DNA of 64,000 bases. It comes from Thioclava atlantica. GTDB taxonomy: Bacteria > Pseudomonadota > Alphaproteobacteria > Rhodobacterales > Rhodobacteraceae. Position numbers and translations under genes: made by a program. How positions within the stretch are numbered: position 1 is the first letter of the stretch; each line of letters starts with the position of its first letter. The notes below the pieces were generated by a model. It searched no databases. It was not told the origin of the DNA and was given only the letters and a program-made list of their open reading frames with translations. Location: the NCBI RefSeq assembly GCF_000737065.1, contig NZ_AQRC01000003.1:186001-250000 (forward strand), read 5' to 3'. Shown in pieces: positions 5,267-57,178 of this stretch.

Positions 5267-5405
5267 GGGGGCTCTGCCCCTTCGCGGCTCACGCCGCTCA
5301 CCCCCGGGATATTTCTCTCAAGAGGAAGCGGGCTCCCTTCTTCCTCTTGATGCAAATATCCCGGGGGAGGCGCCGGATGGCGCCGGGGGCGGAGCCCCCC
5401 CCTTC
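5266..5405. terminator. Back-to-back gene-end elements, copies B and C
   Basis: Copy B (plus, from the stop codon of the preceding gene to about 5315) reads GGGGGCTCTGCCCC, a GCGGC/GCCGC dyad, then CACCCCCGGGATATTT. Copy C is on the minus strand, ending the GNAT gene, and again gives GGGGGC...GCCCCC, a GGCGCC dyad and CCTCCCCCGGGATATTT. Their tails share CAAGAGGAAG and are inverted to each other, forming a further 10-bp stem. The pair separates two convergent genes and very probably acts as a bidirectional terminator. Confidence 0.65.
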
Positions 5406-5990
5406 TCAGAGAGCGCGACGCATCACCTGCACGGAGCGGAATTCGAAGATGAGTCGGGTGAGCGCGGAGCTGCGCCGCCCCGAGACTTCGAAGCCCAGGC
5501 GATGATAGAGCGCACGGGCGCGCAGGTTCTCCTCGATCACGTCGAGAGAGAGCGTCTCGTATCCGAGCTGGCGCGCCTCGGCGGCGAGCGCCTCGATCAG
5601 CGCGCGCCCCACGCCCGCCCCGCGCCTGTCCGGGCGCACCGCGATCCCGTCCACCATCATCACCCGCGGTTCGAGATCATGCGCGAGCAGATGCAGGCAG
5701 GCCGCGCGCCAGAGCGCACCGATCCGCCCGTAATGATCCACCAGATCGGCCCAGCTTCCGCCGACGAAGGAGCCGCGCGGGGTGCGAAAGCCGACGACAC
5801 CCACGAGAGAGCCGTCCGCGTCGACCGCGCTGATCGCATGGCCTTCGCGGATCACCTGCGCGATGAAGCGCAGGGCCCGGGGCTCGGGCCCCATCACCCG
5901 GCCGAGCTTGCCGCCGAAGGCCTGCCAATAGAGCGCGGCGGCCGCTGCACGGTGGTCGCGGGAGAGACCGCGATAGAGCGCGACGCTCAC
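5406..5990 (-). CDS. GNAT-family N-acetyltransferase
   Basis: A 194-residue acetyl-CoA-dependent acyltransferase. The acetyl-CoA pyrophosphate-binding motif A is visible as VRPDRRGAGVGRALIEAL (about residues 118-135), followed by the motif B region ARALYHRLGFEVSGRR near 162-177. Substrate unknown. It begins at a GTG that overlaps the mobA stop codon (GTGA), so translation is probably coupled to mobA. The shared operon does not by itself define a cofactor role, since such acetyltransferases are found beside many genes. Confidence 0.85.
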   Translation of the reverse strand: MSVALYRGLSRDHRAAAAALYWQAFGGKLGRVMGPEPRALRFIAQVIREGHAISAVDADGSLVGVVGFRTPRGSFVGGSWADLVDHYGRIGALWRAACLHLLAHDLEPRVMMVDGIAVRPDRRGAGVGRALIEALAAEARQLGYETLSLDVIEENLRARALYHRLGFEVSGRRSSALTRLIFEFRSVQVMRRAL

Positions 5991-6580
5991 GGCGCCCCCG
6001 CGTCAAGCAGGGCCTCGGCGGTGCGAAGATCCTCGGGGGAATTGAGGTTCATGAACGGGTCGGGCGTGGCGTCGAAGGCGACTTCGCGCGCGCCCGGGGC
6101 GGCCATGCGCAGCCGGCGCTCGCCCGCCGCGAAGAGGGCCGCGATCCGGTCGCGCTCGGCCAGTGGCCAGAGCGCGACGCTGGGATGGGCGCGACCCGCC
6201 GAGGCGGCGATGGCGATCTCCGTGCCGCCCCCGGCCTCGTCCAGCCGCGCCACCAGATCGCGCGGCAGAAAGGGCGTGTCGGTCGGCACGGTGAGCAGCA
6301 GGTCCATCCCCTGCGCGGCGGCCCAGTCGAGCCCCGAGAGCACGCCCGCAAGCGGCCCCTCGCCCCGGCGCTCGGGCGGATCGGCCAGGACCGGGAGCGG
6401 TGCGAAGCGCAGCGGATCGCCATTGGCCGAGATCGCGAGCGCGGCCACCTGCGGGCCGATCCGCCCGGCCACATGGGAAAAGAGAGGCCGCCCGGCGAGA
6501 CCCAGCATCGCCTTGTCCGTCCCGCCCATCCTCCGGCCCTGACCGCCTGCGAGGATCACTGCCGCTATCGTTCCAGCCAC
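5987..6580 (-). CDS. mobA: Molybdenum cofactor guanylyltransferase MobA
   Basis: Transfers GMP from GTP to Mo-molybdopterin, making the MGD cofactor used by enzymes such as DMSO reductase and formate dehydrogenase. The 197-residue reading begins at a GTG (6578-6580) with GGAGG 11 bases upstream. It opens straight into the family signature LAGGQGRRMGGTDKA (nucleotide binding), followed by GPLAGVLSGLDWA and the PTDTPF metal-binding motif. A longer upstream-open frame lacks homology and runs antisense through azlC, so I reject it. It overlaps the acetyltransferase gene by four bases. Confidence 0.9.
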   Translation of the reverse strand: MAGTIAAVILAGGQGRRMGGTDKAMLGLAGRPLFSHVAGRIGPQVAALAISANGDPLRFAPLPVLADPPERRGEGPLAGVLSGLDWAAAQGMDLLLTVPTDTPFLPRDLVARLDEAGGGTEIAIAASAGRAHPSVALWPLAERDRIAALFAAGERRLRMAAPGAREVAFDATPDPFMNLNSPEDLRTAEALLDAGAP

Positions 6581-24027: not shown

Positions 24028-24217
24028 CTGCGTCTCCATATTGCGACCCAGCGGGGGCCACATCTCCGTCACAATCAGTGACGGCGATTCCCAAGAAAAT
24101 TCCCGGGCGAAAAAGCGGCTAAAAAGTGGCATTCGCCTTTTGCGGGAAAAAAACGTCCTTAATGTACGGCCGGGATCGCGGGCTGTATTCGCATTTTGCG
24201 AAATTTTCCGGCGAAAC

Positions 24218-47306: not shown

Positions 47307-47364
47307 CTGCACAGACACGCGCTGCCAAGATAGTTTAAAGCTAAATCAGTTCCGGGAGGGAGCC

Positions 47365-49641
47365 ATGGAAGAGGCTCGTCACGACAACATGCGCCAGTCG
47401 GCGCTGGATTATCACGCCAATCCCAAGCCCGGGAAACTGGAAATCCGCGCGACGAAACCGCTCGCGAACGGCCGCGATCTGGCCCGCGCCTACTCCCCCG
47501 GCGTCGCCGAGGCCAGCCTCGCGATCCGGGCGAACCCGGACACGGCGCGCGACTACACGGCCCGCGGCAACCTCGTGGCCGTGGTGACCAACGGCACCGC
47601 CGTTCTCGGCCTGGGCAATATCGGGGCTCTGGCCGCGAAGCCGGTGATGGAAGGCAAGGCGGTCCTGTTCAAGAAATTCGCCAATATCGACGCCTTCGAC
47701 CTCGAAATCAACGAGAGCGACCCCGAGAAGCTGGCCGATATCGTCTGCGCGCTCGAACCCTCCTTCGGCGCGATCAATCTCGAAGACATCAAGGCGCCCG
47801 ATTGCTTCATCGTCGAGAAGCTCTGCCGCGAACGGATGAACATCCCGGTCTTCCATGACGACCAGCACGGGACCGCGATCGTGGTCGGCGCCGCGGCGAC
47901 CAATGCGCTGCGGATCACCGGAAAGCGCTTCGAGGACATCAAGATCGTCTCGACGGGCGGCGGCGCGGCCGGGATTGCCTGCCTGAACATGCTCCTCAAG
48001 CTTGGCGTGAAGCGTGAGAATGTCTGGCTGTGCGACATCGAGGGGCTCGTCTACGAGGGCCGCGAGACGGACATGACGCCGCAGAAGGCAGCCTATGCGC
48101 AAGGCCGCGAGGCGAAGACGCTCGACGAGGTGATCGCCGGGGCGGACATGTTCCTCGGCCTGTCCGGGCCGGGCGTGCTCAAGCCCGAGATGGTCGCCAA
48201 GATGGCGCCCCAGCCCGTCATCTTCGCGCTGGCCAACCCGACGCCCGAGATCCTGCCCGACGACGCGCGCGAAGTTGCCCCCGACGCGATCATCGCGACC
48301 GGGCGCAGCGACTTCCCCAACCAGGTCAACAACGTCCTGTGTTTCCCCTTCATCTTCCGCGGCGCGCTCGATGTCGGCGCGACGACGATCAATGACGAGA
48401 TGCAGATCGCCTGCATCGAGGGGATCGCCAAGCTCGCCCGCCAGACCACCTCGGCCGAAGCCGCGGCGGCCTACCGCGGCGAGAAGCTCACCTTCGGCCC
48501 CGATTACCTGATCCCGAAACCCTTCGACCCCCGGCTGATGGGCGTCGTGGCCTCTGCCGTGGCGAAAGCGGCGATGGAGACCGGCGTGGCGACCCGCCCG
48601 CTCGAGGACCTGCCGGGCTACAAGGCGCAACTCGACGGTTCGGTCTTCAAATCCGCCCTCATCATGCGCCCGGTCTTCGAAGCCGCGGCCACTGCCACCC
48701 GGCGCATCGCCTTCTCCGAGGGCGAGGACGAACGCGTGCTGCGCGCTGCGATTGCGATGATCGAGGAGACCACCGACACACCGATCCTGATCGGCCGCCC
48801 CGAGGTGATCGAAATGCGCTGCGAACGGGCGGGCCTGCCGCTCGACCTCAATGCGGTGGAGATCGTGAACCCCGAGAACGACCCGCGCTACCGCGACTAT
48901 TGGGGCACCTATCACGAGCTGATGGCGCGGCGCGGCGTCACCCCCGATCTCGCCCGGGCGATCATGCGCACCAACACCACGGCCATTGCCGGGATCATGG
49001 TCCATCGCAACGAAGCGGATTCGATGATCTGCGGCACCTTCGGCCAGTACCTGTGGCACCTGAAATATGTCCGCGAGATCCTCGCACGCGACGGTCTTCA
49101 CCCGGCCGGCGCGCTGTCGCTGATGATCCTCGAGGACGGCCCGCTCTTCGTCGCCGACACCCATGTCCATCACCAGCCCACGCCCGATCAGATCATGGAA
49201 ACCGTGATCGGGGCCGCCCGCCATGTCTCGCGCTTCGGGCTGAAGCCGAAGATCGCGCTCTGCTCGCACAGCCAGTTCGGCAATCTCGACACCGATTCCG
49301 GCGAACGGATGCGCGCCGCGATGGATCTGCTGATCAAGCGCGAGGTCGAGTTCGATTTCGAGGGCGAGATGCATGTCGATGCCGCGCTCGATCCCGAGGT
49401 GCGCGCGCGACTGATGCCGAAGAGCCGTTTCGAAGGGCCGGCGAACGTGCTCGTCTTCGCCAATACGGACGCGGCGTCGGGCGTGCGCAACATCCTCAAG
49501 ATGAAATCGGGCGGGCTCGAGGTCGGGCCGATCCTGATGGGGATGGGCAACAAGGCCCATATCGTGACCCCGTCGATCACCTCGCGCGGCCTTCTCAACA
49601 TGTCGGCGCTGGCGGGCACGCCGGTAACCCATTACAGCTGA
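47365..49641 (+). CDS. maeB: NADP-type malic enzyme with phosphotransacetylase domain
   Basis: A 758-residue hybrid protein. Residues about 1-430 are the malic enzyme, which decarboxylates malate to pyruvate with NAD(P) reduction: [18 protein letters not shown] near the start, catalytic [20 protein letters not shown] (here [12 protein letters not shown]) and nucleotide-binding [12 protein letters not shown]. The remaining 320 residues resemble phosphotransacetylase ([20 protein letters not shown]-like [13 protein letters not shown]) but in MaeB enzymes this part is regulatory. GGGAGGGAGCC precedes the ATG. Confidence 0.94.
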
Positions 49642-49662
49642 GTCGTCCCTGCCAAAGATGAA

Positions 49663-49752
49663 TTTGCAAAGCCGCCACGCGCTGAAAACGCCCTGAAAAC
49701 TCTCGGCAGCTTTGCAAAGATCCCCGGTCGCAGCACCGTGATCTCTGCAAAT
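49663..49752. promoter_or_regulatory. TTTGCAAA boxes upstream of prpE (ScfR-type)
   Basis: Perfect TTTGCAAA palindromes lie at 49663-49670 and 49711-49718; a half-site TCTGCAAATT follows at 49743-49752. TTTGCAAA is the core of sites bound by the short-chain fatty-acyl-CoA regulators (ScfR family: RamB, PccR) that control acetate and propionate genes. The gap between maeB and prpE (209 bp) otherwise shows a possible -10/-35 only weakly. Confidence 0.65.
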
Positions 49753-49850
49753 TCCCCCGCACTTCCGCAGATTGTGCGCGGTAACATTCTTGCGCCAGAC
49801 CCGCCCCGCTCTTAACACATCCTTCAGATGCCGGAGGAGGAGACAGGCGC

Positions 49851-51743
49851 ATGGGCTACAAAGAGGTCTATTCCGCGTGGAAGGCGGATCCCGAGAAATT
49901 CTGGATGGAGGCGGCCGAGAAGATCGACTGGGACCGGAAGCCTTCCCGGGCGCTCTTCGACGAGAACACCCCGCTTTACGAATGGTTCTCGGACGGGATG
50001 GCGAACACCTGCTGGAACGCGGTGGACCGCCATGTCGAGGCCGGGCGCGGCGACCAGATCGCGATCATGCATGAAAGCCCGATCACCCATGCGACCAAGG
50101 GCATCACCTACAAGGAATTGCAGGCCCGCGTGGCCTCGCTGGCCGGCGCCCTGAAGATGCGCGGCGTCGAGAAGGGCGACCGGGTCATCATCTACATGCC
50201 GATGATCCCCGAGGCGCTTGAGGCGATGCTGGCCTGCGCCCGGATCGGCGCGATCCATTCGGTCGTCTTCGGCGGGTTTGCAGCCAACGAACTGGCGGTG
50301 CGGATCGACGACTGCGCTCCCAAGGCGATCATCGCGGCGAGCTGCGGGCTCGAGCCGGGCCGCGTCGTCCATTACAAGCCGCTCCTCGACGAGGCGATCG
50401 AGATCGCCGACCACAAGCCCGAATTCTGCGTGATCTTCCAGCGCGAGCAGGAAGTGGCGAAGCTGATCGAGGGGCGCGACTTCTCGTGGCACGGCTTCCA
50501 ATACGGCGTGAAGCCCGCCGACTGCGTGCCGGTCGAAGGCAATCACCCAGCCTATATCCTTTATACCTCGGGCACGACCGGCCAGCCCAAAGGCGTCGTG
50601 CGCCACACCGGCGGCCATCTCGTCGCGCTGCAATGGTCGATGAAGAACATCTACAATATCGAAGCGGGCGACCGGTTCTGGGCGGCCTCGGATGTGGGCT
50701 GGGTCGTGGGCCATTCCTATATCTGCTACGGGCCCCTGATCGCGGGCGCGACCACCATCGTCTTCGAGGGCAAGCCGATCGGCACCCCGCATCCGGGCGT
50801 GTTCTGGCGCATCATCCAGAACAACCGGATCAAGAGCTTCTTCACAGCCCCCACCGCGCTGCGCGCGATCAAGCGCGAGGACCCGAGCGGCGAATGGATC
50901 AAGCGCTACGTGCTGCATGATCTTCAGGCGCTCTATCTCGCAGGCGAGCGCGCCGATCCCGACACGGTGGAATGGGCGCAGAAACACCTGAAGGTGCCGG
51001 TTGTCGATCACTGGTGGCAGACCGAGACCGGCTGGGCCATCGCGGCCAACCCGGTCGGGATCGAGGAATTGCCGACCAAGATCGGCTCCCCTTCGGTCGC
51101 GATGCCGGGCTACGACGTTCAGGTGCTCGACGAGGGCGGCCACCCGGTCCCGCCGGGTACGCTGGGCGCGATCGCGATCAAGCTGCCCCTGCCCCCCGGC
51201 ACCCTGCCCACGCTGTGGAATGCCGAGGCGCGGTTCAAGAAGAGCTATCTCGAACATTTCCCGGGATATTACGAGACGGGCGATGCCGGCTATATCGACG
51301 AGGACGGCTATCTCTACATCATGGCGCGCACCGATGACGTCATCAACGTCGCGGGCCACCGCCTCTCGACCGGCGCGATGGAGGAGGTGCTCGCGGGACA
51401 TGCGGATGTCGCGGAATGCGCCGTGATCGGGGTGGCGGACGATCTGAAGGGGCAGGTCCCGATGGGTTTCCTGTGCCTCAACGCCGGCTGCAATCGCGCG
51501 CCGGACGAGATCGTGAAGGAATGCGTCCAGCGCGTGCGCGATCAGATCGGCCCGGTCGCGGCCTTCAAGCTGGCCTGCGTCGTCGACCGCCTGCCGAAGA
51601 CGCGCTCGGGCAAGATCCTGCGCGGGACGATGGCGAAGATTGCCGATGGCGAAAGCTGGAAGATGCCCGCGACGATCGACGATCCGGCCATTCTCGACGA
51701 GATCACCCTGGCCTTGAAGGGGCTCGGATACCCGCGCGGGTAA
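49851..51743 (+). CDS. prpE: Propionyl-CoA synthetase (propionate-CoA ligase)
   Basis: A 630-residue AMP-forming ligase. It begins with the PrpE-type SAWKADPEKFWMEAAEKIDW region (here ADPEKFWMEAA), then GEVVIYMPM-like DRVIIYMPMIPEAL, the P-loop YTSGTTGQPKGVVRHTGGH, the PrpE/Acs motif VGWVVGHSYICYGPL, DHWWQTETGW, and the catalytic Lys in KTRSGKILRG. The PrpE-like start and DVGWVVGHSY favour propionate over acetate; acetate use cannot be excluded. GGAGGAGA precedes the ATG. Control by a ScfR-type regulator is suggested by TTTGCAAA boxes upstream. Confidence 0.9.
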   Translation: MGYKEVYSAWKADPEKFWMEAAEKIDWDRKPSRALFDENTPLYEWFSDGMANTCWNAVDRHVEAGRGDQIAIMHESPITHATKGITYKELQARVASLAGALKMRGVEKGDRVIIYMPMIPEALEAMLACARIGAIHSVVFGGFAANELAVRIDDCAPKAIIAASCGLEPGRVVHYKPLLDEAIEIADHKPEFCVIFQREQEVAKLIEGRDFSWHGFQYGVKPADCVPVEGNHPAYILYTSGTTGQPKGVVRHTGGHLVALQWSMKNIYNIEAGDRFWAASDVGWVVGHSYICYGPLIAGATTIVFEGKPIGTPHPGVFWRIIQNNRIKSFFTAPTALRAIKREDPSGEWIKRYVLHDLQALYLAGERADPDTVEWAQKHLKVPVVDHWWQTETGWAIAANPVGIEELPTKIGSPSVAMPGYDVQVLDEGGHPVPPGTLGAIAIKLPLPPGTLPTLWNAEARFKKSYLEHFPGYYETGDAGYIDEDGYLYIMARTDDVINVAGHRLSTGAMEEVLAGHADVAECAVIGVADDLKGQVPMGFLCLNAGCNRAPDEIVKECVQRVRDQIGPVAAFKLACVVDRLPKTRSGKILRGTMAKIADGESWKMPATIDDPAILDEITLALKGLGYPRG

Positions 51744-51781: not shown

Positions 51782-51896
51782 ATTCACAAGTTGTTCATCT
51801 CGACCTCCCCTTTTCTTCGGACCGTTTGGTTCAATTTTGCTCCACACTGGGTTGATTCCTCGCCCGCTCCCGCGGATGATCAATCTGGTTACCCAT

Positions 51897-53453
51897 ATGA
51901 AAACAGCTTACCCGAGTTCTGAACCGGACGATCGTGTCGCGCCCCCCCGGGCCGCGGAGTTGGCGATGTTGCAACACGATCTCCGTGCGGGCCTCGATGA
52001 GATCATCGGGGGGGTCGACCGTGTTCTCGCGTTCGAGGTGGAGCCCCAGAAACGCGCAGAGCTAGAACGCATCCGGGTCTCGGGCGAGGAACTGGCGCGA
52101 TTGCTCGACCTACTCAACGGCGGCACCGAAGCCCGCGTTGAAGACGCGGCGGACCAGAAAGCCACGCTGCTCGATATCCGCATTTTTCTGCGCACGCTCG
52201 AGCGGCGCTGGACCTGCGCGGCGCGCGACCGCGACCTGGCTTTCGAGCCGTTGATTTCCCCGCAAGTCCCCCCTGCCCTGCTCGTCGATCGCGGCCTGCT
52301 TGAACGGATCGCGGGCAATCTCCTGAGAAACGCCTTCGCGTATAGCGGGAAGGGCACGGTGCGGCTGCATCTCGAGTTCGAGCTGCCTCACTCCTTGATC
52401 CTGCGCGTGACCGACGAGGGCCCGGGTTTCGCCGCAGAGGTGATATCCGAAGCCGCGAGGCCGGGCGCCCGCGGCCCTGTCGCACGCCGCCTGCGCCCGG
52501 AAGGCCAGGGGCTGGGGCTGTCGATCTGCCGCACCCTGTGCGAGGCGCAGGGCGGATGGGTCAGCTGGGCCAATCGCCCCGAAGGCGGGAGCGAGATCAA
52601 GGCCCGGATTCCGGTCGGCATCCCCGCATCGCAGGAAAGCGCCGCCGCGAAACATACGCGGATCGAGGAATTGCCCGACCTCACTGGGTGGCGCACCCTC
52701 GTTGCCGACGACAGCGAATCAACGCGCGCGCTCTTCACGCACCTCCTCGGCGCAATGGGCGCCGATGTGCTGACCTTCTCCGATGGCGCGGGCGCGCTGA
52801 GGCGGCTTCTGGCCGAGCCCGTGGACCTTGCAGTCCTCGATGTCGAAATGCCCGAACTGGACGGGCTGGAGGTGATGCGGCGGCTGCGCGGCTCCGGGCG
52901 GGTCTGGTCGCGACTGCCGATCATCGCCTGTTCCGGGCGCAGCGGACCCGGCGATCACCGGGAGATCCGGATGGCGGGCGCGGACCTGATCCTGACGAAA
53001 CCGTTAGCCGCGGTCATCCCGATCCTTCACGCGATCTGTGACGTCACCGGCCATTGTCCGCCGCCTGCGCCCCGCCCTCGCCCGAACGCCCCGGGAGACC
53101 GCCTGCTCGCGCGGCTTCTCGGTCGAACCGGGTCCAGCCTGCCCGAATTTCTCTCCGAGCAGATCGTCAACGACCTTCGCACGATCGCGCAGTCTCTTCG
53201 CGTCGCTCTCGCGCAAGGAGACCGTCTTATTTTGAGGCAACAGAGCCATAAGCTCATCGCCGTGGCAGGGGCCGGGGGTGACGATACCCTCACTCGACAG
53301 GCACGCGCGCTTGACAGCGCGGCCCGACATGGCACCTATGAGGACATTAACGAATTGGGCCAAATCGCTCTGGTCTTGTTGGATCGGCTCATCGTTAGAA
53401 TGACTGAAGATTTTTTGGAAAAGAACGATTTCAATGATGAGTATTTCACATAA
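51897..53453 (+). CDS. Soluble hybrid histidine kinase with receiver and Hpt domains
   Basis: About 518 residues with no membrane segment. Order: HisKA-like helix with H27 (QHDLRAGLDEI, lacking the usual Pro), ATPase domain with N-box NLLRNAF (141-147), TDEGPGF and GQGLGLSI; receiver domain with phospho-Asp315 (AVLDVEMP) and TKPL; and a C-terminal Hpt with His451 (QSHKLIAVAGAGG). This is a self-contained phosphorelay that should feed the response regulator encoded next, whose gene overlaps it by 20 bases. Start choice is uncertain (earlier and later in-frame ATGs exist, none with an ideal ribosome site). Signal unknown. Confidence 0.85.
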   Translation: MKTAYPSSEPDDRVAPPRAAELAMLQHDLRAGLDEIIGGVDRVLAFEVEPQKRAELERIRVSGEELARLLDLLNGGTEARVEDAADQKATLLDIRIFLRTLERRWTCAARDRDLAFEPLISPQVPPALLVDRGLLERIAGNLLRNAFAYSGKGTVRLHLEFELPHSLILRVTDEGPGFAAEVISEAARPGARGPVARRLRPEGQGLGLSICRTLCEAQGGWVSWANRPEGGSEIKARIPVGIPASQESAAAKHTRIEELPDLTGWRTLVADDSESTRALFTHLLGAMGADVLTFSDGAGALRRLLAEPVDLAVLDVEMPELDGLEVMRRLRGSGRVWSRLPIIACSGRSGPGDHREIRMAGADLILTKPLAAVIPILHAICDVTGHCPPPAPRPRPNAPGDRLLARLLGRTGSSLPEFLSEQIVNDLRTIAQSLRVALAQGDRLILRQQSHKLIAVAGAGGDDTLTRQARALDSAARHGTYEDINELGQIALVLLDRLIVRMTEDFLEKNDFNDEYFT

Positions 53454-54939
53454 AGACCCTGCGAAACCGCCCGGCGGTCGAGACTGCGAGTCACAAGAGG
53501 GCGGCGTGTCTGTCCTCCCGAGCTACGCCCCCTCCTCGCCCCTCCGCTCCGTCTCGCCCAATCCCCCCGACATCAAAAGCGAACAGGTCCTTCTCATCGA
53601 GGATATCGGATCGCTCAGCGCCATTTACCAAGCCTATCTCCACGACGCGGGGTTCGTCACCCACAGCGCCACCACTGCCGAGCAAGGAATGGAGATCTTC
53701 CGCGCTCACCCGATCCGGATGGTGCTCCTCGATCTCATGCTTCCCGACAGGAATGGCGACGAACTGATCGCCGAGATGCTCGCGCTTCGTCCCCGCACAG
53801 CGATCATCGTGACCACCGCCGATCGCTCGGTGGATCGCGCGGTGCAGGCGATGCAGGCGGGCGCGGTCGATTTTCTCGTGAAACCGATCGAGGAGCCGCG
53901 CCTGCGTGCAGCGCTCGAGAACGCCCGCACCTCGAGCCTTCAGGCCGGGTTTGACGGCGAGGCCGCCCCCTCCGACGCGCCGATCGGGACTTTCATCGGC
54001 ACCTCCGCTTGCATGCAGAGCGTCTACGAGCGTGCCCGCGCGGCCGCGCGCTCTTCCGCGCCCATCTACATCTGGGGCGAGAGCGGCACGGGCAAGGAAC
54101 TCTGCGCCCATGCGATCCATGCCAGCGGACCACGCAGCGAAGGGCCGTTCGTCACGCTCGATTGCGGATCGCTGCCCGCCGACCGGCTCGAAAGCGAACT
54201 TTTCGGCCATTATCGCGGCGCGTTCCCGGGGGCGCTCTACGACAAGCCCGGCGCGCTGATGAATGCCGATGGCGGCACGCTGCTGCTCGACAACATCACC
54301 GATCTCGACCCGATCGTGCAGATCAAGCTGCTGCGTGTTCTCGAATCCGGTCAGGTCAAGCCCTTCGGCGCGCCCGAGCCCCTCTCGGTCGACGTCCGGG
54401 TAATCTGCGCGGCCACCCCCTCGCCTGCCGAGGTCCTCGAGAGCGGAAAGATCCGCGACGACCTGTATTACCGGCTGCATGTGCTTGCCATCGAGATGCC
54501 CGCCCTGCGCACCCATCCCGAGGATATCGGACCGATCGCCCGCATGGCGCTCGCCCGGTTTGCCGCCGAGGAGCAACGCAGCTTCACCGACATTTCCGAC
54601 GCGGCGATCCGCCGGCTCGAGGAAATGCGCTGGCCCGGCAATGTGCGGCAGCTGATGAATGTGCTGCGCGCGGCGATGGTGATGAATGACGGGCCCGTGC
54701 TCGAACCCGAAATGCTCCCCGACACGATCGACGGACCGGCCCCGAATTCGACCGGAGGTCCGCTGGAGGATGGCACGCTTCAGGCCTTCGCCGGCTGCTC
54801 CCTGGCCGAGATCGAGCGCGCCGTCATCGAGGCCGCGATCGCGCGTCATGACGGGTCGATCCCGCGCGCGGCGATCGAGCTCGGCGTCGCACCCTCGACG
54901 CTCTATCGCAAGCGGGACAGCTGGGCCGAGAAGCCCTGA
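53434..54939 (+). CDS. NtrC-type response regulator with altered sigma-54 loop and Walker B
   Basis: A 501-residue protein. Receiver domain with phospho-Asp100 (VLLDLMLPD) and Lys150; AAA+ domain with intact Walker A GESGTGKE (215-222); C-terminal Fis-type HTH (RAAIELGVAPSTLYRKRD). Two family hallmarks differ: the sigma-54-contacting GAFTGA loop reads GAFPGA (262-267), and Walker B reads LLLDNI, with Asn287 replacing the catalytic Glu. Arginine-finger region (KIRDDLYYRL) and WPGNVRQL are kept. ATP hydrolysis and sigma-54 activation are therefore doubtful. Partner of the preceding kinase. Confidence 0.88.
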   Translation: MMSISHKDPAKPPGGRDCESQEGGVSVLPSYAPSSPLRSVSPNPPDIKSEQVLLIEDIGSLSAIYQAYLHDAGFVTHSATTAEQGMEIFRAHPIRMVLLDLMLPDRNGDELIAEMLALRPRTAIIVTTADRSVDRAVQAMQAGAVDFLVKPIEEPRLRAALENARTSSLQAGFDGEAAPSDAPIGTFIGTSACMQSVYERARAAARSSAPIYIWGESGTGKELCAHAIHASGPRSEGPFVTLDCGSLPADRLESELFGHYRGAFPGALYDKPGALMNADGGTLLLDNITDLDPIVQIKLLRVLESGQVKPFGAPEPLSVDVRVICAATPSPAEVLESGKIRDDLYYRLHVLAIEMPALRTHPEDIGPIARMALARFAAEEQRSFTDISDAAIRRLEEMRWPGNVRQLMNVLRAAMVMNDGPVLEPEMLPDTIDGPAPNSTGGPLEDGTLQAFAGCSLAEIERAVIEAAIARHDGSIPRAAIELGVAPSTLYRKRDSWAEKP

Positions 54940-54949
54940 GTGCCTTCGC

Positions 54950-55711
54950 TCAGGCGAATTGCTCGCGCATGAGACGCTCCTCGAGCCCGTGGCCGGGATC
55001 GAAGAGAATATGGTGCTCGATCTCGGGTTCGGAACGCACCTCGACCCACTTCACCGGCTTCACCGAGCGCGAATCCGCATCAGCCATGACCGGCCGTTTC
55101 TCGCGTTCAAGCACCTCGAAGCGCACCGTCGCCGAATTCGGCAGGATCGCCCCCTGCCAGCGCCGGGGCCGGAAGCTCGCGATACCGGTGAGCGCGAGCA
55201 CGTCGGATCCGATCGGCAGGATCGGCCCATGCGCGGAAAAATTATAGGCGGTCGAGCCTGCGGGCGTGGACACGATCGCCCCGTCGCAGACCAGCTCCTG
55301 CAGGCGCACCTTGCCGTTGATCGAGATCTTGAGCTTGGCGGCCTGCGGCCCCGCGCGCAGCAAAGAGACCTCGTTGATCGCGAGCGCCTCGTGCAGGATG
55401 CCATCCTCGGTCTCCGCCTTCATCGAGAGCGGGTTGATCACCGCGACCTCGGCCGCTTCCAGCCGCTCGGGCAGGTTTCCCGGCACATAGTCGTTCATCA
55501 GGAAGCCGACCGAGCCGCGGTTCATCCCGTAGACCGGCAAGCCCGTGCCCTCATGCAGGCATTGCAGCATGAAACCGTCCCCGCCGAGCGCGACGATCAC
55601 GTCGGCGGCATAGCGCGGCACCTGCCCGTAGCGCGAGATCAGATCCTCGCAGGCGGATTGCGCGCTGTCTCCGGACGCGGCGGCAAAATGGATATGGGTG
55701 AATTTGCGCAC
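54950..55711 (-). CDS. nadK: NAD kinase
   Basis: A 253-residue enzyme that phosphorylates NAD to NADP. The GGDG motif is VALGGDGFMLQ (residues 43-53), followed by SVGFLMNDY, substrate motif NEVSLLRAG and the glycine-rich STPAGSTAYNFSAHGP. The start is a GTG (55709-55711), the upstream-extended reading being antisense through glyA; GGGAGG lies nine bases before it. It is transcribed away from glyA, with a 174-bp gap containing a 9-bp tandem repeat. Confidence 0.92.
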   Translation of the reverse strand: MRKFTHIHFAAASGDSAQSACEDLISRYGQVPRYAADVIVALGGDGFMLQCLHEGTGLPVYGMNRGSVGFLMNDYVPGNLPERLEAAEVAVINPLSMKAETEDGILHEALAINEVSLLRAGPQAAKLKISINGKVRLQELVCDGAIVSTPAGSTAYNFSAHGPILPIGSDVLALTGIASFRPRRWQGAILPNSATVRFEVLEREKRPVMADADSRSVKPVKWVEVRSEPEIEHHILFDPGHGLEERLMREQFA

Positions 55712-55885: not shown

Positions 55886-57178
55886 ATGACCGAGCAACGC
55901 GACGCTGGCTTTTTCACCGAAAGCCTCGCCACCCGTGACCCCGAGCTTTTCAAATCGATCACCGACGAGCTGGGTCGCCAGCGCGACGAGATCGAACTGA
56001 TCGCCTCGGAAAACATCGTCTCGAAGGCGGTGATGGAGGCCCAGGGCTCGGTGATGACGAACAAATACGCCGAAGGCTACCCGGGCAAGCGCTACTATGG
56101 CGGCTGCCAGTATGTCGACGTCGCCGAGACCCTCGCGATCGACCGCGCCAAGGAACTCTTCGGCTGCGAATTCGCGAACGTCCAGCCGAACTCGGGCAGC
56201 CAGGCCAACCAGGGCGTCTTCACCGCGCTTCTGAAGCCCGGCGACACGATCCTCGGCATGAGCCTCGACGCGGGCGGCCACCTCACCCACGGCGCCAAGC
56301 CCAACCAGTCGGGCAAGTGGTTCAACGCGATCCAGTACGGTGTGCGCAAGCAGGACAGCCTGCTCGATTACGATCAGGTCCGCGCGCTGGCACAGGAACA
56401 CCAGCCCAAGCTGATCATCGCCGGCGGCTCGGCGATCCCGCGCCAGATCGACTTCGCCAAGTTCCGCGAGATCGCGGATGAGGTCGGCGCCTACCTGATG
56501 GTCGATATGGCCCACTTCGCCGGTCTCGTGGCCGGTGGCCAGCACCCTTCGCCCTTCCCCTATGCCGATGTCGCGACCACCACGACACACAAGACCCTGC
56601 GCGGCCCGCGCGGCGGCATGATCCTCACCAACAACGAGGAAATCGCGAAGAAGGTGAACTCGGCGATCTTCCCCGGCATCCAGGGCGGTCCCCTGATGCA
56701 TGTCATCGCCGGCAAGGCCGCGGCCTTCGGCGAGGCGCTGCGCCCCGAGTTCAAGGTCTATGCCGAGCAGGTCGTGAAGAACGCGCAAGCGCTCGCTGAC
56801 GAGCTGATGAAGGGCGGGCTCGACATCGTCACCGGCGGCACCGACACCCATGTGATGCTGGTCGATCTGCGCCCGAAAGGCGTGAAGGGCAACGCGACCG
56901 AGAAGGCCCTCGGCCGCGCGCACATCACCTGCAACAAGAACGGTATCCCGTTCGATCCGGAAAAGCCGATGGTCACCTCGGGCATCCGTCTGGGCACGCC
57001 CGCCGGCACCACCCGCGGCTTCAAGGAAGAGGAATTCCGCGAGATCGCCCGCCTCATCGTCGAAGTGGTCGACGGTCTGGCCGCAAACGGCGAAGAGGCC
57101 AATGGCGACGTCGAAGAGGCCGTGAAAGCCAAGGTCGCGACGCTGCTGGCGCGCTTCCCGCTCTATCCCGAGCTCTGA
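55886..57178 (+). CDS. glyA: Serine hydroxymethyltransferase
   Basis: A 430-residue PLP enzyme that interconverts serine and glycine with tetrahydrofolate, supplying one-carbon units. Features: [20 protein letters not shown] (here [11 protein letters not shown]), [18 protein letters not shown] Lys in the [18 protein letters not shown] segment (here [12 protein letters not shown]), and [14 protein letters not shown]. Normal length. GAGGAG precedes the ATG. A strong terminator follows at 57197. Confidence 0.98.

Follow-up and report, generated by a model that had tools for sequence, protein, structure and literature searches.

In the window, the 64,000-nucleotide stretch of Thioclava atlantica DNA analysed here, one gene encodes a protein built like the enhancer-binding proteins (EBPs) that work with sigma-54, in which the loop contacting sigma-54 and the ATPase pocket are both altered. 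The question raised by this locus is whether such a protein still activates with sigma-54, is decaying, or has passed to another way of controlling its target. A sequence-only reading had labelled it NtrC-like, had expected its sigma-54 activation to be harmed, and had proposed that it may act as a phosphorylation-controlled DNA-binding switch. The relevant features are the following.

47365..49641, plus strand: maeB-like gene (malic enzyme/phosphotransacetylase), synteny anchor
49851..51743, plus strand: acs-like gene, synteny anchor
51873..53453, plus strand: cytoplasmic hybrid histidine kinase with receiver and C-terminal Hpt-like segment (HATPase_c, Response_reg)
53434..54939, plus strand: AprX/LuxO-like response regulator, REC-AAA+-HTH_8, 501 aa, with degenerate loop and ATPase pocket
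53587..53916, plus strand: receiver domain of the regulator, Asp100/Thr128/Lys150 kept (Pfam Response_reg, residues 52-161)
54076..54096, plus strand: Walker A, GESGTGK, residues 215-221, kept (motif and orthologue alignment)
54160..54162, plus strand: Glu-switch position, Asp243 here, Asn in 73 of 73 canonical orthologues
54217..54234, plus strand: sigma-54 contact loop GAFPGA, residues 262-267 (P265), canonically GSFTGA/GAFTGA
54280..54294, plus strand: Walker B, LLLDN, residues 283-287 (N287), canonically LFLDE
54799..54918, plus strand: Fis-type helix-turn-helix (HTH_8), kept (Pfam, residues 456-495; APSTLYRK conserved)
54950..55710, minus strand: nadK-like gene, synteny anchor, bounds approximate
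55886..57178, plus strand: glyA-like gene, synteny anchor

The regulator, its identity and its phosphorelay

The reading frame is translated without internal stops, and four domains score above the Pfam cut-offs, Response_reg (52-161), Sigma54_activat (188-353), AAA lid (359-438) and HTH_8 (456-495), giving the REC-AAA-HTH architecture of EBPs. The GAFPGA loop and the LLLDN Walker B, to which the sequence-only reading had drawn attention, are indeed present at residues 262-267 and 283-287; two further changes in the pocket had escaped it, namely D243 at the Glu switch, a pair formed in PspF by N64 and E108 (PMC4132715), and T328, by which the sensor I Asn is gone. The protein therefore departs from sigma-54 activators at position 4 of the loop, which is neither Thr nor Ser, as well as in Walker B (DN instead of DE), Glu switch (Asp243 instead of Asn) and sensor I (Thr328 instead of Asn). 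Lack of GAFTGA, together with a kept Walker A and phospho-acceptor Asp, is the sequence pattern of sigma-70-dependent EBPs of the R. capsulatus NtrC type. Long antisense reading frames lie at 47341-49818(-), 49824-51401(-) and 53491-54849(-), opposite maeB, acs and the regulator; in coding DNA rich in GC, such frames are to be expected by chance.

The NtrC-like label could not be upheld. The best NCBIfam match is LuxO (NF041946), whose 389.9 bits are below the equivalog cut-off of 800, the best match among solved structures is LuxO 5ep0, and the same genome encodes separate NtrC-like and NtrX-like proteins, both without the loop; on these grounds the regulator is LuxO-like, not NtrC. It has a single syntenic orthologue in genomes featuring xrpA and a TTGCAN3TGCAA enhancer, and from this synteny and from the palindrome upstream of xrpA we infer that it is probably, by name, the orthologue of AprX (RSWS8N_13400). 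This comparison was made through genome G090, which is probably C. sphaeroides, as judged from its four rpoN genes and from the regulator-xrpA distance of about 306 kb, consistent with the published locus-tag spacing.

The gene order cdd-maeB-acs-(kinase or short Hpt-like gene)-regulator-nadK-glyA is conserved throughout the family. In the window the fourth place is taken by the hybrid kinase gene (51873-53453), which overlaps the regulator gene (53434-54939). The kinase H-box, N-box, G1, G2, receiver Asp and Hpt His are conserved genus-wide, and the C-terminal segment is weakly matched by the Hpt profile (E 0.16). In G090 and G130 a short protein takes the place of the kinase; the one in G090 (L304), located between acs and the aprX orthologue, is 183 aa long and matches the Hpt profile with an E of 6e-4, below the Pfam cut-off. 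In G009 the kinase core is lost, while the Hpt-like end and the regulator are retained; G008 and G011 retain the regulator without the kinase. These three cases count against the main reading given below. The presence of an Hpt-like segment or protein upstream, and its outlasting the kinase core in G009, point to an Hpt-type phosphodonor. The overlapping hybrid kinase is thus the probable phosphodonor of the regulator, and the 183-aa protein directly upstream of the G090 aprX orthologue is a candidate for the same role; an Hpt-type donor is thereby proposed for AprX, whose report named no nearby kinase.

Orthologues, selection and the loss of rpoN

Among 110 orthologues collected family-wide, 73 feature a GAFTGA, GSFTGA or GSFSGA loop, combined without exception with Walker B DE, Glu-switch Asn and sensor I Asn. 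The loop is defective in the remaining 37, with Pro at position 4 in 23 of them; 24 of these 37 proteins, but no protein of the 73, have also lost the Walker B DE. The receiver Asp100 is found in 108 of the 110. Within the clade of the same genus (n=11, 59-71% identity), all members share P265 and N287, as well as Asp at the Glu switch, a position held by Asn in every canonical orthologue, and the loss of the sensor I Asn. Equally invariant in the 11 are Walker A Lys, Asp286, both Arg fingers, sensor II Arg, the receiver Asp100/Thr128/Lys150 and the HTH, in agreement with the sequence-only reading as far as Walker A, arginine fingers and HTH are concerned. Retention of Walker A, Asp286, Arg fingers and sensor II, along with loss of the hydrolysis residues, fits a protein that would bind ATP without hydrolysing it.

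That reading had also held that orthologues with normal motifs would point to a strain-specific mutation or a sequencing error. Such orthologues do exist, the 73 canonical ones, in other genera; the conclusion attached to them does not hold, since the conversion is found at the level of the lineage and goes with rpoN loss. Strain mutation and sequencing error are both ruled out by the orthologues carrying the same changes.

A second clade of the genus (G004, G008 and G011) has GALPGA or GAVSGA loops, LFLDK in Walker B and, again, Asp at the Glu switch. The Glu-switch/Walker B pair is hence Asp-Asn in the DN clade and Asp-Lys in these three genomes, and in two more orthologues, those of G085 and G264, Asp is combined with DE, which places the Asn-to-Asp change at the Glu switch apparently before the loss of the Walker B Glu. 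Two other EBPs of the T. atlantica genome, L001 and L002 (G000:C2:94913 and G000:C4:28673), have GAFPGA and a Walker B DE. Nine EBP-type AAA proteins of this genome were examined, the regulator among them, and GAFTGA is intact in none.

rpoN was searched with PF04552; a second domain model, PF04963, bore out its absence. Genomes bearing rpoN encode 70 intact and 10 defective loops, those devoid of it 3 intact and 27 defective (Fisher p=2.6e-14); with one genome per genus, the figures are 70/7 and 3/17 (p=8e-11). A tree built from the flanking genes requires at least 14 changes of loop state and 17 of rpoN; in 14 phylogenetically independent pairs differing in rpoN, the loop agrees in 10 and opposes in none (p=0.002). 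Two of the three rpoN-less exceptions with an intact loop are 76%-complete assemblies, the third being G401. Across the sequences compared, loop defects track sigma-54 loss.

Once sigma-54 was lost, the gene might have become functionless and be drifting by chance towards a pseudogene, an outcome which we hold to be highly unlikely for the clade under study. It would account for the 247 of 267 rpoN-less genomes of the family from which the gene is absent, the other 20 only having kept it, and for several distant rpoN-less lineages in which loops and Walker motifs are badly eroded (GDADGS, GRGKSA, deletions). Within its own clade, in contrast, the regulator shows dN/dS values of about 0.03-0.21 between close members, which indicate purifying selection; its frame is intact in 14 congeneric genomes, its receiver and HTH, with their key residues kept in 11 of 11, are more conserved than the AAA domain, the kinase and Hpt residues are maintained, and the putative operator described below lies at one fixed distance. 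Canonical sister pairs have a ratio of AAA to REC divergence of about 0.5, pairs of this clade one of 1-3.6 (Mann-Whitney p=4e-5, the pairs being not all mutually independent, as G002 and G003 were used twice). Constraint, as read from these divergences, is shifted between domains, AAA being loosened relative to the receiver.

Sigma-54 is not strictly absent from the genus, a point against the main reading given below: 12 of its 16 genomes are without rpoN, but T. atlantica itself (G000) and three congeners (G001, G003 and G013) carry it. The regulator might accordingly still work with an acquired rpoN, the GAFPGA loop being tolerated, and GAFPGA is also found in the rpoN-bearing G085, G291 and G338. 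We give this possibility very little credence: the GAFPGA/DN protein is retained by seven congeners devoid of rpoN, xrpA is without -24/-12 in all of them, replacements at loop position 4 other than S, E or D are classed as inactive by Francke 2011 (PMC3162934), and PspF T86A cannot engage the closed complex (PMC4132715).

In T. atlantica, rpoN lies on an island, with a peptide/nickel-type ABC transporter operon following it (L272:9517-16535, G000:C1), adjoined by a mobilisation-like protein (L272, 7794-9308). The matching segment of G003 (L273) contains in addition a stand-alone GAFTGA activator (5308-6306), of which no counterpart was found in the T. atlantica genome.

The xrpA promoter and its operator

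In C. sphaeroides, AprX, a REC-AAA-HTH protein with a GSFTGA loop, and RpoN3 activate xrpA, which encodes an XRE repressor of ctrA and chpT and lies just upstream of a hisN paralogue (PMC11999139). In that report, AprX homologues were scored only if their GAFTGA/GSFTGA box was intact, and co-occurred with rpoN and a sigma-54 promoter. Using hisN as a guide, we located the xrpA upstream regions of 46 genomes, chosen rather than drawn at random. In all 13 rpoN-bearing genomes with an intact loop, a -24/-12 site (0-1 mismatch) is found at -44 to -79 of the xrpA start codon, and the palindrome TTGCAN3TGCAA about 150-190 bp further upstream; the latter is identical to the Vibrio LuxO site, TTGCAW3TGCAA (PMC11443567).

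In 31 genomes with a defective loop, the best -24/-12 match within the last 110 bp has 2 mismatches in one case and 3-5 in all others. The palindrome is found upstream of xrpA in 30 of these 31, 13 times exact, 10 with one mismatch and 7 with two, the rates in shuffled sequences being 0.01%, 0.3% and 4%, respectively (about 4.5% for two mismatches or fewer); none was found in the adjacent control region of the same genomes. In the DN clade this putative operator lies at -175 to -177 of xrpA in every genome; in T. atlantica it reads TCGCAAATTGCGA (L398:1604-1616), still symmetric, with two mismatches to the LuxO consensus. Genome-wide, exact TTGCAN3TGCAA sites are not clearly more numerous than a reversed control in every genome of the genus (2 and 2 in T. 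atlantica), so that only the position upstream of xrpA is informative. A symmetric sequence of the same form as the T. atlantica operator, TCGCATTTTGCGA, occurs in the window at 24189-24201, between two minus-strand genes, a match no better than chance would give over the window. No conserved -24/-12 was found near the regulator locus itself.

An extended -10-like element, TGNTAGNTT, is found at -37 to -40 of xrpA in most genomes of the clade, the version in the G006 group being CGGTAGTTT, and is missing from all 13 sigma-54-type xrpA promoters. If the sigma-70 reading is true, xrpA transcription is expected to start just 3' of TGGTAGTTT. Between operator and presumed -10, a strongly conserved inverted repeat, CCTGTC-N6-GACAGG, is present in the genus (e.g. 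in L398), several relatives having GTATAATTGGACATATCCAAAAAGACAGG at this place; it may be bound by another regulator or by XrpA itself.

With the substitutions fixed in the lineage and accompanying the absence of sigma-54 and of -24/-12 at the inherited target, sigma-54 activation by this protein has almost certainly been lost, as judged from sequence, in line with the harm foreseen from the loop and Walker B alone. The proposed phosphorylation-controlled switch also fares well, phosphorelay residues, receiver Asp, HTH and a putative DNA site being kept as it would require. The reading that we consider probable is that the AprX orthologue now controls xrpA without sigma-54, gated by a phosphorelay, binding ATP and hydrolysing it poorly or not at all; we infer from the sequences compared that it would bind the operator, use sigma-70 and act as an activator.

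The direction of control deserves separate consideration. The operator lies within a divergent intergenic region, at a long distance from the presumed xrpA -10, and could instead serve the divergent gene, which counts against the main reading; and Caulobacter NtrC, which is without GAFTGA, both activates and represses (PMC10274813). The regulator might thus have turned into a repressor or antirepressor, acting either on xrpA or on the divergent quinone-oxidoreductase-like gene, with the operator no longer used for activation; we regard this as unlikely. Against it stand the distances: about 135 bp separate the operator from the presumed xrpA -10, and roughly 140-240 bp from the start codon of the divergent gene in those genomes of the genus where this start was found, so that neither core promoter is covered by simple steric placement. 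Activation at a distance is favoured over repression.

If the AprX orthologue does control xrpA without sigma-54, the ancestor would have been a LuxO-type regulator bound at a TTGCAN3TGCAA enhancer some 150-190 bp upstream of -24/-12, turning on xrpA with sigma-54. After the sigma-54 of the circuit was lost in the lineage, the xrpA -24/-12 and the GAFTGA loop would have decayed, followed by the residues for ATP hydrolysis, while phosphorelay input, receiver, nucleotide-binding residues, HTH and xrpA operator would have been retained. The present protein would be a phosphorylation-controlled DNA-binding oligomer, controlling xrpA through an extended -10 of the sigma-70 type that lies about 135 bp 3' of the operator, and the AprX-xrpA circuit would have outlived sigma-54 by replacement of its core promoter. 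G401, which has lost rpoN and -24/-12 and keeps the operator and a GSFTGA loop, is a probable intermediate in this conversion. A broader proposal, which we put forward tentatively and with more doubt than belief, is that loss of rpoN repeatedly led, in a fixed order (sigma-54 and -24/-12, loop Thr to Pro, then hydrolysis residues along with Glu-switch Asn to Asp), from LuxO/AprX-type EBPs to phosphorylation-gated enhancer proteins that bind ATP without hydrolysing it and act on a new sigma-70 promoter from the former enhancer.

Significance and relation to known systems

EBPs acting with sigma-70, such as R. capsulatus NtrC, Caulobacter NtrC and VpsR, are already known (PMC10274813), and passages of Francke 2011 (PMC3162934) report about 110 homologues whose loop is defective, with Pro preferred at position 4, as well as an EBP in a sigma-54-less Jannaschia; the same passages of this catalogue do not cover target promoters, ordered loss or operator retention. 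What is new here is that many parallel cases come from a single orthologous group, together with the order of the losses and the retention of the operator despite the loss of -24/-12. Sigma-54-independent EBPs were previously single curiosities, whereas one syntenic orthologous group provides many independent replicates. With a before-state (GSFTGA, -24/-12 and rpoN), the probable intermediate G401, several after-states, the target gene and its operator in hand, it becomes directly testable how an activator wholly dependent on sigma-54 comes to do without it. The findings also suggest that databases and pipelines mislabel such proteins as sigma-54 regulators.

Vibrio LuxO resembles the regulator in its DNA site, TTGCAW3TGCAA, and in its input from an Hpt-type protein, LuxU; it differs in being a sigma-54 activator of the qrr sRNAs, with a GAFTGA loop. 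HupR and VpsR are likewise relatives of EBPs that have lost sigma-54 contact (PMC3162934; PMC10274813), but belong to other orthologous groups, and VpsR is independent of phosphorylation and ATP (as cited in PMC10274813). The NtrC proteins of R. capsulatus and Caulobacter are also response-regulator EBPs that lack GAFTGA, and both are reported to work at promoters of the sigma-70 type (PMC10274813). They too belong to another orthologous group, and their loop is deleted rather than changed from T to P; R. capsulatus NtrC needs ATP binding rather than hydrolysis (as cited in PMC10274813), while Caulobacter NtrC still requires its Walker B Asp.

Among the closest systems is AprX of C. sphaeroides (PMC11999139), with which the regulator shares the REC-AAA-HTH architecture and the palindrome upstream of xrpA. 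The AprX orthologue is preceded by a short Hpt-like protein, the T. atlantica regulator by a full hybrid kinase with an Hpt-like segment; and AprX has the GSFTGA loop, the intact ATPase residues, the RpoN3 partner and the -24/-12 xrpA promoter which were lost in this lineage.
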